Shown here: positions 6,699-10,190 of the stretch, one piece after another
Position numbering within the stretch: position 1 is the stretch's first letter
Layout of the letters: each line of letters begins with the position of its first letter
Assembly (NCBI GenBank): GCA_004377245.1
Contig: SOIK01000264.1
Location: forward strand, 1 to 12,544
Source: Sulfurovum sp.
Lineage (GTDB): Bacteria; Campylobacterota; Campylobacteria; Campylobacterales; Sulfurovaceae
Length of the DNA stretch: 12,544 bases
Reading direction: 5' to 3'
The notes under the pieces: model-generated
Told to the model about the DNA's origin: nothing
Database searches by the model: none
What the model saw: only the letters and a program-made list of their open reading frames with translations
Position numbers and translations under genes: made by a program

Positions 6699-6838
6699 GA
6701 TATTCCTCCATTTGATTATTTATTTATATTAGTATATTGAGAGTTTGTGTAGGATATATGTAGTTTTTGAAGCTGTACTTGTTAATTATTGATGTAAGGT
6801 TATTTACTCCTCTAGTTAAAGATTACTCCTGAGACAAT

Positions 6839-6869
6839 AACCTTATAAAATTATATATTTTATAAGGTT
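6839..6869. repeat. AT-rich palindromic repeat, copy A
   Basis: The arms AACCTTATAAAA and TTTTATAAGGTT are perfect 12-bp inverted copies around the 7-bp centre TTATATA. With the following TTTTG it is identical to copy B at 8568 except for one base. The layout of two 11-12 bp arms and a 6-8 bp centre is like a tyrosine-recombinase crossover site. It could also be an operator, because it lies directly upstream of a TATAAT box. Confidence 0.85.
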
Positions 6870-6880
6870 TTGAAAAAAGG

Positions 6881-6886: not shown

Positions 6887-7032
6887 ATTGAGATTTCAAA
6901 AAATACTGTGTTAGCTGAATAAAAAACTATCTATATTATTGGGGTCATTCCATACATTATCAAGGACATAATAAAAATTAGTACTTTAGATAACATTATC
7001 TCTAAGCTAACTAAATGAAAAAGGGAAAAGCA

Positions 7033-7476
7033 ATGAAACAAAAGAAAATATATTTCTACATGGCAAGAGAAAAATATGGAGAGTTTTCTAACTTTGCTCC
7101 TTATGGTATAGAGATGGATGGTAGATGGTGGAAAACTCCTGAGTACTACTTCCAAGCACAAAAGTTTACTGGTGAAGCACACAAAGAGAAGATCGCCAAT
7201 GCTGTTGATACTAAAACAGCATTTAATTTGGGTCGTTCTAGAGAGATACCAATACGAGAGGATTGGGAAGAGGTTAAAGATAAGGTAATGTATCGTGCTA
7301 TCTTGAAAAAGTTTAAAACCTACCCCAAACTCAAAGCTCTCCTCCTTAGTACGGGAGATGCTGAAATCATTGAGAACTCTCCTCTGGATAACTATTGGGC
7401 TTGTGGAAAAGATGGCAAGGGTAAGAATATGTTGGGGCAGATATTTATGAGGGTTAGGGGTGAGTTAAAAATATAG
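7033..7476 (+). CDS. NADAR-domain protein (YbiA/RibX-like)
   Basis: This is a 147-aa single-domain protein of the NADAR family. Members are N-glycosidases: E. coli YbiA cleaves an early riboflavin intermediate, and others remove ADP-ribose from guanine in DNA as antidotes to DarT-type toxins. Conserved features seen are YGEFSNFAPY at the start, the WWKTPEYYFQAQKF helix, FNLGR, and the C-terminal DNYWACGKDGKGKNMLGQIFMRVR, which covers most of the known active-site signature. The ATG at 7033 was chosen over the in-frame ATG at 7015 because AAGGGA lies 7-10 bases upstream of it. The gene is followed 62 bp later by an M28 peptidase on the same strand and lies between palindromes A and B. No riboflavin gene or DarT-like partner is in the window, so its substrate is open. 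Confidence 0.9.
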   Translation: MKQKKIYFYMAREKYGEFSNFAPYGIEMDGRWWKTPEYYFQAQKFTGEAHKEKIANAVDTKTAFNLGRSREIPIREDWEEVKDKVMYRAILKKFKTYPKLKALLLSTGDAEIIENSPLDNYWACGKDGKGKNMLGQIFMRVRGELKI

Positions 7477-7538
7477 TTTTTTTGAGCAATTATACAAATA
7501 AAAATCTTCAAAAGGTTAAAATTATAAAAAGGAAAGAT

Positions 7539-8444
7539 ATGTTTATCACTAGTTCAGAAACCAAGCAATCATCTTCTAAAATCATAACAAATAAAACAAT
7601 CACTATCTCTGAATCCTATCTGCAAAAAGTCATAGATAGTATCTCTGTACCAAGGCATTACATCTATGAAAAAAAGAACAATTTAAAAGTTAGAAGTTGG
7701 ATAAAGAGAGAGTTTGAATCTTTGGGGTTGCATAGTGTATATCAAGGTGATTATGACAATATCATTGCTACTTATGATGGCGTACTTATGAGTGAGTGTA
7801 CTATCATCATTGGTGGACACTATGATAGCGTACCAAACTCTACAGGAGCAGATGACAATGCCAGTGCTATAGCAGGTCTCTTGGCTACAGCAAAAGCCCT
7901 CAAAGAAGTTGCCCTTTCCTTACCTGTAATGTTCGTGGCATTTAATAGAGAAGAGGATGGGTTGTTGGGGAGTCAAGAGTTTATGGATACTCTTCCTCAA
8001 TCTCTAAGAGAGCAGATAAAATGTGTGCATATACTAGAGATGATAGGCTACTGTAGTCATGAAGCACACTCTCAGCATATCCCCGAAGGACTCCCTATCA
8101 AGGTTAGTGATGTAGGAGACTTCATAGCCATTATCTCAAATAGAGACTCCAACCACCTTATCAAACCTATCATAAAATTGGCAGAGAGCCATCAACCCCA
8201 ATTAGCAGTCAAGGCTTTAAAAGTTTTTCTAGGAGTTGAGAAGTTCTTCCCTCATCTATCACGAAGTGATCATGCACCATTTTGGCAAAGTAGAATACCT
8301 GCTATGATGTGGACAGATACCTCAGAATTTCGCAATCCTCACTACCATAAACCTAGTGATACTCCTGATACTTTAGATTATGAGTTTATGAGAAGAGTTG
8401 TAGAGTTATTGGGTGAGGTGGTGTTGGAGGAGTTGCGTGAGTAA
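7539..8444 (+). CDS. M28-family zinc peptidase
   Basis: This is a 301-aa metallopeptidase with the aminopeptidase fold using two zinc ions. Likely ligands and catalytic residues are all visible: GGHYDSVPNSTGADDNASA (His94, Asp96, Asp105), FNREEDGLLGS (general base Glu138 and ligand Glu139), HILEMIGY (an acidic ligand, Glu in place of the more common Asp), and HYHKPSDTPDTL, which supplies the last His. No signal peptide or membrane segment is present, so it probably acts in the cytoplasm on peptides. The ATG at 7539 follows AAAAGGAAAG. A frame extending back to a TTG at 7482 has no ribosome site and was not used. It is in line with the NADAR gene and probably cotranscribed. The substrate is unknown. 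Confidence 0.92.
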   Translation: MFITSSETKQSSSKIITNKTITISESYLQKVIDSISVPRHYIYEKKNNLKVRSWIKREFESLGLHSVYQGDYDNIIATYDGVLMSECTIIIGGHYDSVPNSTGADDNASAIAGLLATAKALKEVALSLPVMFVAFNREEDGLLGSQEFMDTLPQSLREQIKCVHILEMIGYCSHEAHSQHIPEGLPIKVSDVGDFIAIISNRDSNHLIKPIIKLAESHQPQLAVKALKVFLGVEKFFPHLSRSDHAPFWQSRIPAMMWTDTSEFRNPHYHKPSDTPDTLDYEFMRRVVELLGEVVLEELRE

Positions 8445-8538: not shown

Positions 8539-8594
8539 AAAGTCTAGAAGAATATATACATTCAAAAAACCTTATAAAGTTATATATTTTATAA
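8535..8594 (+). pseudogene. Gene start truncated in palindrome B
   Basis: The ATG overlaps the preceding stop as ATGA and reads MKSLEEYIHSKN, a normal-looking protein beginning, before running into palindrome B and stopping there after 19 codons. Coupled starts of this kind normally lead into a full gene. I infer that the rest was replaced by the sequence beyond the palindrome, though a chance short frame is possible. Confidence 0.4.
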
Positions 8595-8600
8595 GGTTTT
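8566..8600. repeat. AT-rich palindromic repeat, copy B
   Basis: Arms of 14 bp (AAAACCTTATAAAG and TTTTATAAGGTTTT, one mismatch) surround the centre TTATATA. The core at 8568-8598 differs from copy A by a single base and is in the same orientation, so A and B are direct repeats 1,729 bp apart bracketing the NADAR and peptidase genes. Confidence 0.85.
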
Positions 8601-8647
8601 GCAAATAAGATATTTGGTTCTTGTTTCGTTTCTACCTTTTTCTATAA

Positions 8648-8731
8648 CGTTCAGCTTGAGCGGCGCCGCCACCGAACTTCCCGCGAAGCGCTGCTGTGCT
8701 TCCTGGCGTCCGCTCGAAGCTGGTGTTAGGC
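8648..8731 (-). repeat. attC recombination site
   Basis: On the - strand the order is R'' GCCTAAC (8731-8725), L'' CAGCTTCGAGCGG (8722-8710), a terminal region, L' CCGCTCAAGCTG (8663-8652) and the R' core beginning at 8648. The arms pair over 12 bp with one extrahelical base, which on the + (recombining bottom) strand is G8716. T8709 is a second unpaired base before a further CGCC/GGCG pairing. The inner part can fold again (GAAGC 8685-8689 with GCTTC 8698-8702). An extrahelical G, paired arms and an unpaired spacer next to the cores are the defining attC features. Confidence 0.9.
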
Positions 8732-8783
8732 AGCCCCATTGCGAAGCCAGCGTCCTGCCCATGAGGCCCTCATATTGCTATCC

Positions 8784-9101
8784 TTATTGCAACTCCCCTT
8801 CTCCAACCGGCTCGCGTGCCGTGGAGAAATATCCCATCTTGCGGATATCGCTGAAATGTAGGTAGACTGGCCCCTCGTTTCTCAGAAGATCAAGCACATC
8901 TGAGTACTGCTCCGGTGGATAATGGCACGCGATAAAACCAGACGGAAGCTTCGTGTCGTGCGCCTGAACATCGTTTGAGTTCTTGTAGAACCTGACGTTG
9001 GCAACCGTTGCCCGGTTTTCATCGTATAGCCAGATCATAGCTCTCAGGAAATAGCCTGTCCCACCGGCGAAATGTTGAACCTGATACTTTTCGATTTTCA
9101 T
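8784..9101 (-). CDS. Integron cassette protein of unknown function, 105 aa
   Basis: This is the only ORF of the cassette and is oriented towards the attC, as in standard cassettes. The stop lies 52 bp before the attC left core. The ATG follows a near-perfect AAGGAGGGG ribosome site. The protein is soluble, with no signal or membrane segment. It starts with a beta-strand-like KIEKYQVQHFAGGTGYFLRAMIWLYDE and has a central VANVRFYKNS. Its C-terminal half is LPSGFIACHYPPEQYSDVLDLLRNEGPVYLHFS. The alternating pattern and size fit the many small hypothetical cassette proteins, but I cannot name a domain. Its G+C content and codon use (GCC, CCG and CGC codons) are foreign to this genome, which supports recent transfer. 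Confidence 0.88.
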   Translation of the reverse strand: MKIEKYQVQHFAGGTGYFLRAMIWLYDENRATVANVRFYKNSNDVQAHDTKLPSGFIACHYPPEQYSDVLDLLRNEGPVYLHFSDIRKMGYFSTAREPVGEGELQ

Positions 9102-9198
9102 GATCCCCTCCTTTTTAGGTATGATGCTCTCAGAAATCAGTGAGGCAAATAGTACTAACGTCTGCTCCCCTTTGTTCGGCAGCCTAACTATTTATTAG

Positions 9199-9424
9199 GG
9201 GAACAAAATGTCCCACTATTAGTGTATTTTTCATATTAGTAGTATATCAAAAATGTCTGTCTATTTCTAAAAATATGACAATTTGACAGATTTTTTCCAT
9301 GCTTTGTGAAAAAACTATACAATTATTATACATGCTTATGTCCTTTTAGTCAGATTTGAGCCAATATCTGGACAAAGTGTTCCTCTATTTGCCAAATAAT
9401 CCATTAAAAGGACACTTTGTCCTT
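9199..9424. repeat. Three GGACA-NNN-TGTCC palindromes
   Basis: Three related palindromes lie within 226 bp. Site 1 is GGGAACAAAATGTCCC (9199-9214), with one bulged A. Site 2 is GGACAAAGTGTTCC (9370-9383), with one bulged T. Site 3 is AAGGACACTTTGTCCTT (9408-9424), perfect, and inverted relative to site 2 (centres AAG and CTT). A half-like GGAACAAAGT recurs at 9748-9757 near the hemoglobin promoter. The size fits operators of a dimeric regulator. Confidence 0.55.
9221..9250 (-). promoter_or_regulatory. Possible promoter reading into the cassette
   Basis: On the - strand TTGATA (9250-9245) and TACACT (9226-9221) are 18 bp apart and lie 34 bp before the cassette start. This position would let host DNA supply the promoter that promoterless cassettes need. 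In such AT-rich DNA the match may be chance. Confidence 0.3.
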
Positions 9425-9485
9425 CAAGTGAAAGGTTAGAAATATGAAGATAAAAATATTTCTCTCCAAAATGATTAGCTGATTC

Positions 9486-9682
9486 AAAACCTTATAATCT
9501 AACATATTTTATAGCGTTTGTCGCTACAACGACATTCAAAAGTACTAGATCAGAAATGAAAACCTTATAAAGTTATATATTTTATAATGTTTATCGCTGT
9601 AGCGACACCTTTTTACTATAGTACTAAAATTTACAGATGAAAACATTATAAAACATGCCTATATGGGAGATTTTATAATTAA
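9486..9682. repeat. Degenerate tandem array of the palindrome (copies C, D, E)
   Basis: Copy C (9488-9518), copy D (9561-9591) and copy E (9642-9682, with its centre expanded to 17 bp) repeat the AACCTTATAA/TTTTATAA arms at spacings of 73 and 81 bp. C and D are each followed directly by a second small palindrome: GTCGCTACAACGAC (9520-9533) and ATCGCTGTAGCGAC (9593-9606). AGTACTA recurs at 9541 and 9620. The repeat unit is therefore about 75-80 bp and longer than the palindrome alone. The left arms are better conserved than the right arms. Confidence 0.7.
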
Positions 9683-9827: not shown

Positions 9828-10190
9828 ATGAAAAATACATTATATGATCGGCTAGGCGGAGCTGAAGTCATTAGGAAATTGGCAAACGATATAGCAGAAA
9901 ATCATCTTGCTAACCCTCTTATAAAAACTCGATTTGAAGTAGTTGAGAATATGGATAAGGTGAAAGAAATGGTTTTTGAATTTATTTGTGCCGGTACCGG
10001 TGGTCCTCAGACCTATACAGGTAAAGATATGCTGAGTGCACACAAGGGGATGAATGTTTCCGAACAAGAATTCATAGCGGTGGTGGATGATATCCTTGCT
10101 GCAATGGATCAAAATAATATTGGTGAAACTGAAAAAAATGAGATGCTGGTGATTGCCTATTCGCTCAAAGGTGAAATTATACGTGTATAA
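9828..10190 (+). CDS. Group 1 truncated hemoglobin
   Basis: This is a 120-aa heme protein of the two-on-two globin fold, expected to bind O2 or NO in the cytoplasm. The N-terminal LYDRLGGAEVIRKL is the usual opening. GGPQTYTGKDMLSAHKGMNVSEQEF holds the E-F region with proximal His72. The C-terminal helix ends SLKGEII. Compared by eye with typical members, the B9-B10 Phe-Tyr pair appears replaced by Ile22-Ala23, so the distal Tyr that stabilises bound O2 in many family members seems absent. The start is fixed by AAAGGAGAG 7-8 bases upstream. The gene stands alone between the repeat region and the convergent superoxide dismutase. NO detoxification or oxygen sensing is inferred from the family and neighbour only. 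Confidence 0.92.
   Translation: MKNTLYDRLGGAEVIRKLANDIAENHLANPLIKTRFEVVENMDKVKEMVFEFICAGTGGPQTYTGKDMLSAHKGMNVSEQEFIAVVDDILAAMDQNNIGETEKNEMLVIAYSLKGEIIRV

Follow-up and report, generated by a model that had tools for sequence, protein, structure and literature searches.

An integron is understood to combine one integrase, one attI site and one cassette array, with expression largely limited to the first cassettes. An element with a single attC site and no integrase is named a SALIN. Cassettes that are bounded by attC and lack a neighbouring intI are described as CALINs in excerpts of two reports (PMC10295459, PMC8618304), and off-target insertion and loss of intI are among the origins proposed for them (PMC8618304). 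CALINs of strain NBC37-1 are listed in a table of PMC10295459. Insertions at attG sites were reported by Loot et al. 2024, as cited in an excerpt of PMC11023631, and are also treated in excerpts of PMC12901181 and PMC12444791. The literature already covers intI loss, CALINs, attG insertions, delta-attI cassettes and MITE-bracketed integrons, and in the titles and abstract openings of the open-access literature we found no description of many dispersed attI copies per genome.

Here, we describe an integrase-less locus of Sulfurovum, a sulfur-oxidising bacterium. The window, i.e., the whole stretch of DNA analysed, is contig C30 (12,544 bp) of the Sulfurovum MAG G000 (1.19 Mb, 58% complete), and the genus comparison covered 78 genomes, its own and 77 others. 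An initial annotation had placed the window in a Campylobacterota-like chromosome, which agrees with the genus, and had described a lone foreign cassette inserted at a secondary G^TT site. The coordinates of the cassette proved right, while its surroundings point elsewhere: it very probably occupies the first position, as the sole cassette, of a small integron unit without integrase, which it would have entered by attC x attI recombination at AAATAG^TT. Read on the minus strand, the unit consists of palindromes, intI stump, attI with a Pc-like block, cassette, array end and palindrome. Its features in the window are as follows.

8566..8600, no strand assigned: palindrome AAAACCTTATAAAG...TTTATAAGGTTTT, flanking the unit on its cassette side
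8603..8647, minus strand: array end after attC (TTATAGAAAAAGG...CTTATTT), also at C95 4869-4913 and, diverged, at C95 3541-3585
8642..8731, minus strand: attC, with R'' GCCTAAC at 8731-8725, a stem with one extrahelical base, and R' G^TTATAG at 8648-8642
8648..9187, minus strand: gene cassette, 540 bp, starting with TTAGGC at 9187 and ending in ...AACG at 8648
8784..9101, minus strand: cassette ORF, 105 aa (pLDDT of the model 89)
9188..9456, minus strand: attI, the intI-attI intergenic region of the native Sulfurovum integron, with G^TT at 9188/9187
9241..9269, minus strand: Pc-like promoter block by consensus match, with -10 TATACT at 9246-9241, reading into the cassette
9444..9482, plus strand: intI start remnant, in which ATGAAGATAAAAA aligns to intI and is followed by unrelated codons and a stop
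9486..9592, no strand assigned: palindromic repeats AAAACCTTATAATCTAACATATTTTATA..., flanking the unit on its intI side

The cassette and its attC site

The crossovers lie at 9187/9188 and 8647/8648, and the two ends of the cassette coincide with the end of attI and with the start of the repeated array end. An ORF and an attC site are thus bounded by G^TT recombination points, as in an integron gene cassette. The GC content is 52.8% in the cassette against 37.5% elsewhere in the window, and the adjacent 540-nt flanks have 35.6% and 26.9%, bearing out the sharp change in base composition noted initially; the richest other 540-nt stretch of the window, sampled every 10 nt, reaches 46.1%.

In the circular cassette, R'' GCCTAAC and R' GTTAGGC are perfectly complementary, and the junction would read AACG^TTAGGC. 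Between YAAC and GTT, the stem comprises 12 bp with one extrahelical base; when the 160-nt region was dinucleotide-shuffled 1000 times, no shuffle attained this (best 10; 797 scored 0) under a score that was devised after the site had been seen. The single-stranded folds are moderately unusual, with z-scores of -2.2 for the minus strand (7 of 200 shuffles fold equally well) and -2.4 for the plus strand (5 of 200). In known attC sites, recombination takes place on the bottom strand, the one opposite the gene, and in the plus-strand fold the extrahelical base is a G; the paired arms, matching cores and extrahelical G of the initial annotation are all recovered. Rfam at gathering thresholds gave no match in the window, and a covariance model built from native Sulfurovum attC sites did not match the window site at E<=0.05, the outcome to be expected of an attC of another type; the window attC is not of the native type. 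The model was trained on 14 sequences, and only 4 base pairs were retained in its automatically derived structure, so that the model works mainly by sequence. It replaced the stem score, which was too noisy as an attC detector after ORFs (at least 9 pairs in 12 of 42 intI-less attI copies vs 40 of 250 controls).

The cassette ORF is preceded by AAGGAGG. A search of 5.8 billion proteins gave ten homologs with 61-86% identity, including one in Vibrio quintilis. The ORF matched no family in Pfam, NCBIfam or PADLOC, and its model matched no PDB fold at E<=0.001 (best E 0.19). A peptide-word search of genome contigs gave 43 stretches, none of which was confirmed, and the plasmid search found neither the ORF protein nor the attC DNA. 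The ORF is missing from all 77 other Sulfurovum genomes, by which the cassette is judged to be foreign and laterally acquired, as had been proposed.

The flank of the cassette is the native attI

Upstream of the cassette, the alignment of the window with loci of relatives extends from the recombination point as far as the start codon of intI, and the likeness to intI ends after ATGAAGATAAAAA, leaving about five intI codons at 9444. In relatives with an intact intI, the same ~270 bp separates intI from the first cassette and ends at AAATAG^TT, in 11 of 11 loci of sufficient length. A DNA search identified the sequence beside the cassette start as a repeat in the genus: window positions 9160-9400 match G015:C45:28193-28397, G082:C1:54485-54690, G065:C117:3037-3252 and G081:C73:274-479 at 77-87%, and each of these matches directly adjoins an IntI match. 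IntI above the curated cut-off is present in 20 of the 78 genomes. The edge CTATTTAT... lies upstream of intI in 11 of the 15 intI loci inspected; the remaining four are G021 (292 nt upstream, edge absent) and G019, G035 and G089, which are too short. We take attI1 (…AAAACAAAG^TTAGGC) to have the same layout as this AAATAG^TT edge. Because the flank is homologous to the attI beside intI, the AAATAG^TT that had been read as half of an empty chromosomal site is the attI core.

The locus therefore has an attI beside its first cassette, as a complete integron does, and lacks the intI that would adjoin it, in agreement with the initial observation that no integrase stands next to the cassette. The annotation had also allowed for a source integron elsewhere in this genome; further attC sites do occur, on contig C95, and no IntI match was found in the MAG, which is 58% complete.

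According to the initial reading, the cassette was placed by an integrase encoded elsewhere into a secondary, attG-like G^TT site of the chromosome. The missing intI would fit this, and cassette insertion at non-att sites is described in excerpts of PMC12901181 and PMC12444791; however, ~265 bp of the flank is homologous to the attI beside the intI of relatives, the intI start is still present, and the opposite flank is repeated where an array ends on C95, which leaves a secondary site very improbable. The predicted empty site AAATAG^TTATAGAAA has no exact match in the 78 genomes; seven of them match with 2 mismatches each, against 14 matches of the reversed control. Three of these seven matches were inspected (G033:C11, G065:C117 and G017:C130), and all are attI copies followed by other sequence, while none of the 69 attI copies examined below continues with TTATAG. 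The class of attG insertions, whose target is neither attI nor attC, was rejected for this locus, where the target is attI.

Several short palindromes (GGACAnnnTGTCC, flanks TATT/AATA) were seen in the intI-attI region of the window (9188-9456) and of G015, G016, G019, G082 and G092. By eye, their sequences covary from one attI type to the next, which would fit binding by a co-evolving protein or by the integrase.

Integrase-less arrays on contig C95 of the same MAG and a possible unit on C45

At C95 4869-4913, the array end and a palindrome follow directly after the attC crossover G^TTATAG. The window and this copy are 94.8% identical across 97 nt, a stretch that starts 12 nt ahead of the crossover, within the end common to the two attC sites. 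The diverged copy at C95 3541-3585 stands ~60 nt after its attC and is preceded by A, not G. The long array-end pattern matched one of the 78 genomes, namely its own, at three places, and thus the tails of other genomes rest on a looser six-locus comparison, in which G003, G012, G023, G026, G063 and G075 have similar 3' tails. Contig C95 carries two integrase-less arrays with other cassettes than the window, whose ORFs match the ACP_PD, Cdd1, DUF6228 and MJ1316 families, so the cassette is not alone in its genome. With at least two clustered attC sites and no intI, C95 answers to the definition of a CALIN, and the window, with one attC, does not. Taken together, the attI flank and the recurring array end place the cassette at position 1 of an integrase-less integron unit.

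The first C95 array also contains a GC-rich FAD-dependent oxidoreductase-like gene (L077 1998-3269, minus strand), which lies opposite to the cassette orientation and is flanked by two attC matches.

An assembly chimera, in which the cassette was wrongly joined to the contig, would have to be considered for a 12,544-bp contig of a single MAG with no read data. Yet both junctions fall exactly at recombination points, and on C95 this truncated attI and this array end stand with other cassettes, making such an artefact highly unlikely.

Window positions 9393-9571, which span the intI truncation and reach into the palindrome, are identical on C95 over 179 nt, and a homologous junction exists in G012 (L117). 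C95 matches the window attI only from 9251 onward. Compared with C95, the window attI looks like a mosaic, and homologous recombination between units may accordingly have moved the cassette and the attI end together; the 179 identical nt could reflect recent recombination between the two loci. Contig C45 of the MAG has an attI-end match with 2 mismatches, palindromes and an attC recognised by eye, which the attC covariance model did not match on this contig, and it may hold a further small integrase-less unit.

attI copies without intI across the genus

Copies of attI were surveyed at loci chosen for fetching as best BLAST hits in 36 genomes, which are not a random sample; six loci inside larger ones were dropped, and copies whose match starts more than 3 nt from the edge were excluded. 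There are 71 copies starting at the recombination edge: 11 have an intact intI (at least 280 of 315 IntI residues found, reading frame unverified), 6 a partial one, and 54 are intI-less. The intI-less copies are 55-318 nt long and stand at separate loci; 28 genomes have one, and 12 have two or more. Seven of the 71 copies have less than 700 bp of sequence on the cassette side, and the set of 69 used below omits those with less than 150 nt there.

G^TT lies at the edge (within 2 nt) in 57 of 69 copies, comprising 11/11 intact, 5/6 partial and 41/52 intI-less ones, and is missing in 11 of the 52. In a collection of named contigs, which come largely from the same genomes and are not independent of the survey, TT follows 26 of 30 matches to an attI pattern that itself lacks TT, and one other match is at a contig end. 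An ORF of at least 60 aa starts no more than 80 nt from the edge in 42/52 intI-less, 6/11 intact and 4/6 partial copies, compared with 423 of 1281 random positions. The native attC model gave 42 matches at E<=0.001 in 408 kb, 14 of them being its training sequences, and all 42 are on the cassette side and strand of attI. At E<=0.05 it gave 47, and among the five weaker matches at least one (L083 4790) is on the wrong side. A native attC is found within 2 kb of 24 of the 54 intI-less copies, and 30 are without one. Modules of ~155-190 bp at the attI edge recur farther along the array of another genome (L082/L123 and L078/L132, 95% identity over 155 and 193 nt), and in L132 the module follows an attC match.

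The attI-end pattern, with up to 3 mismatches, has 177 matches in the 78 genomes vs 40 in the reversed control. The closed genome G023 has 10 such matches against 0 in the control and no IntI above the cut-off, and G012 has 12 against 1 together with two IntI genes above the cut-off.

GC-rich modules with little or no ORF were observed at the attI edges of L078, L085, L086, L118, L133 and L077 (TTGCACGC/TTGCTCGC) and at those of L082 and L084 (TTGTTCGAA); such modules recur across several genomes and at several attI sites of G012. A Sulfurovum-type attI was also encountered on short contigs of MAGs labelled Bacteroidetes (L179, 253 nt at 80%) and Thiotrichales (L169, 32 nt only). These attI copies in MAGs of other phyla would be explained by misbinning or transfer.

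The Pc-like block of the window matches 9 of 12 consensus positions and is one of 10 such matches found vs 3.4 expected. TATACT is kept in 51/54 intI-less, 3/6 partial and 5/11 intact copies, the copies with intI including other attI types, and GACA-N6..9-TATACT is present in 40 of the 54 intI-less copies. This block looks like a putative promoter aimed at the cassette, and the cassette ORF is probably transcribed from it. Loss of intI with retention of Pc, the attI end and a cassette gene is the pattern that selection for an expressed gene would leave.

Palindromes and shared truncation points

The palindromes at 8566-8600 and 9486-9592 belong to one family and are not identical. Of the 54 intI-less copies, 14 have a member of this family (AAAACCTTATAA...TTATAAGGTTTT) no more than 150 nt from their intI-side end, as does none of the 17 copies with intI or a piece of it, the baseline being 9 in 278,917 bp. 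Ten of the 14 have a second palindrome within 3 kb on the cassette side, and neighbouring units on C95 share one. Over all 54 intI-less copies, a palindrome stands within 2 kb on the cassette side in 9, vs 3.0 expected. One 5' junction, with the truncation 'CAGGACA' beside the palindrome, is common to G003, G063 and two loci of G023, and variants of it are found in G012 and G013. A related repeat, AAAACCTTATAATCTAACAT, is present in 29 of the 78 genomes with no matches in the control. In five genomes, 8 of 29 copies of this repeat lie within 3 kb of an attI end vs 0.45 expected; most stand away from attI and hence form a repeat family of their own. The arrangement suggests that palindromes bracket mini-elements.

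The surroundings of the unit were also inspected. A further AAAACCTTATAA palindrome is located at window positions 6838-6870, between a nitrilase-like gene and a NADAR and M28 peptidase gene pair (7015-8444), and this pair may be another palindrome-bounded insertion. The truncated-haemoglobin gene beside the unit (9828-10190) has a match in one of 37 relatives (G010), which points to a variable neighbourhood. Sequence drawn from G004, G007, G010 and G016 contained one side of the locus only, and thus gave no empty locus; in G007, nitrilase and gene 548 are separated by ~7 kb.

Two other accounts of the family have to be weighed here. One holds that the units spread as palindrome-bracketed, non-autonomous MITE-like elements, whose cassettes were swapped by homologous recombination and not by an integrase acting in trans. 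The restriction of intI-side palindromes to intI-less copies, the second palindrome of 10 of these 14 and the mosaic attI are consistent with it. However, 40 of the 54 intI-less copies have no intI-side palindrome, the cassette side has only 9 within 2 kb over all 54, and most AAAACCTTATAATCTAACAT repeats stand away from attI. Spread of this kind is possible, if somewhat doubtful, as an account of the family.

The other is plain decay, whereby resident integrons lost intI in place and the copies are independent dead integrons, with nothing dispersed. Six loci with pieces of intI (L027, L097 and L133-L136) fit such decay; intI pseudogenes are reported to be common (PMC2426708, excerpt), and intI loss to be frequent in Xanthomonas (PMC12444791, excerpt). 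Against it stand the identical truncation at two loci of one MAG with its homolog in G012, the common 'CAGGACA' truncation in three genomes, the similar 3' tails in six genomes and the 10 attI-end matches in the closed chromosome of G023, and we regard decay as a rather unlikely explanation.

Proposed origin of the unit

We propose that IntI-catalysed attC x attI recombination at AAATAG^TT inserted the foreign cassette into the unit. The integrase would have been encoded at the locus before the deletion of intI, or would have been supplied in trans by another integron in the cell. Loading in trans is favoured by the two units of one MAG with identical truncation and different cassettes, while the mosaic attI and the 179 identical nt mean that recombination between units could have exchanged cassettes as well. 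Once in place, the cassette ORF would be transcribed from the predicted Pc-like promoter in attI. The unit would belong to a dispersed Sulfurovum family, in which attI and cassettes persist, and partly multiply, without an adjacent integrase.

As a tentative extension, which might hold with a little less than an even chance, these loci may form a 'distributed integron' of many short integrase-less attI and Pc platforms, scattered over the chromosome and spread in part as palindrome-bracketed mini-elements. Each platform would hold and express one or a few cassettes, and its loading in trans would be the work of one or two integrases, or of integrases passing through the population. Cassette capture would then have many expressed first positions at its disposal, not a single one. 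Multi-copy integrase-less attI sites with a promoter block would provide many 'first positions' per genome; such platforms would explain some of the integrase-less cassettes and suggest how integron platforms multiply. Off-target insertion should not be concluded from a lone cassette without intI before a comparison of its flank with the attI native to the genus.

Comparison with known systems

Like CALINs, the Sulfurovum units contain attC-bounded cassettes with no adjoining intI (PMC10295459, PMC8618304). They differ in that they keep attI with a Pc-like block and occupy several loci per genome, whereas the CALIN definitions given in the excerpts of these reports omit attI; in addition, part of the Sulfurovum units share truncation points and ends. 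The chromosomal integrons of Xanthomonas, as portrayed in an excerpt of PMC12444791, are similar in that intI is truncated or absent, cassettes are kept and CALINs stand at other loci. In Xanthomonas, however, there is one ancestral locus (ilvD) with CALINs, and that excerpt mentions no dispersed attI. Insertions at attG likewise place a chromosomal cassette where no integrase adjoins it (excerpts of PMC11023631, PMC12901181 and PMC12444791), but the target in Sulfurovum is the native attI.

The delta-attI cassettes of class 1 and 2 integrons resemble the Sulfurovum units in having attI pieces that extend from the core site and are duplicated off the platform (PMC12901181, excerpt). There, attI pieces replace attC downstream of the gene, whereas attI in Sulfurovum is upstream, with a promoter block, measures 55-318 nt in the intI-less copies and stands at separate loci. 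The MITE-flanked Tn402-like class 1 integrons of Acinetobacter (PMC3934969, excerpt) share constant truncation points, brackets of short repeats and varied arrays with the Sulfurovum units. The Acinetobacter system has 439-bp MITEs, 5-bp target repeats and intI1, in contrast to the AT-rich palindromes of the intI-less chromosomal units of Sulfurovum, for which no target repeats are shown.
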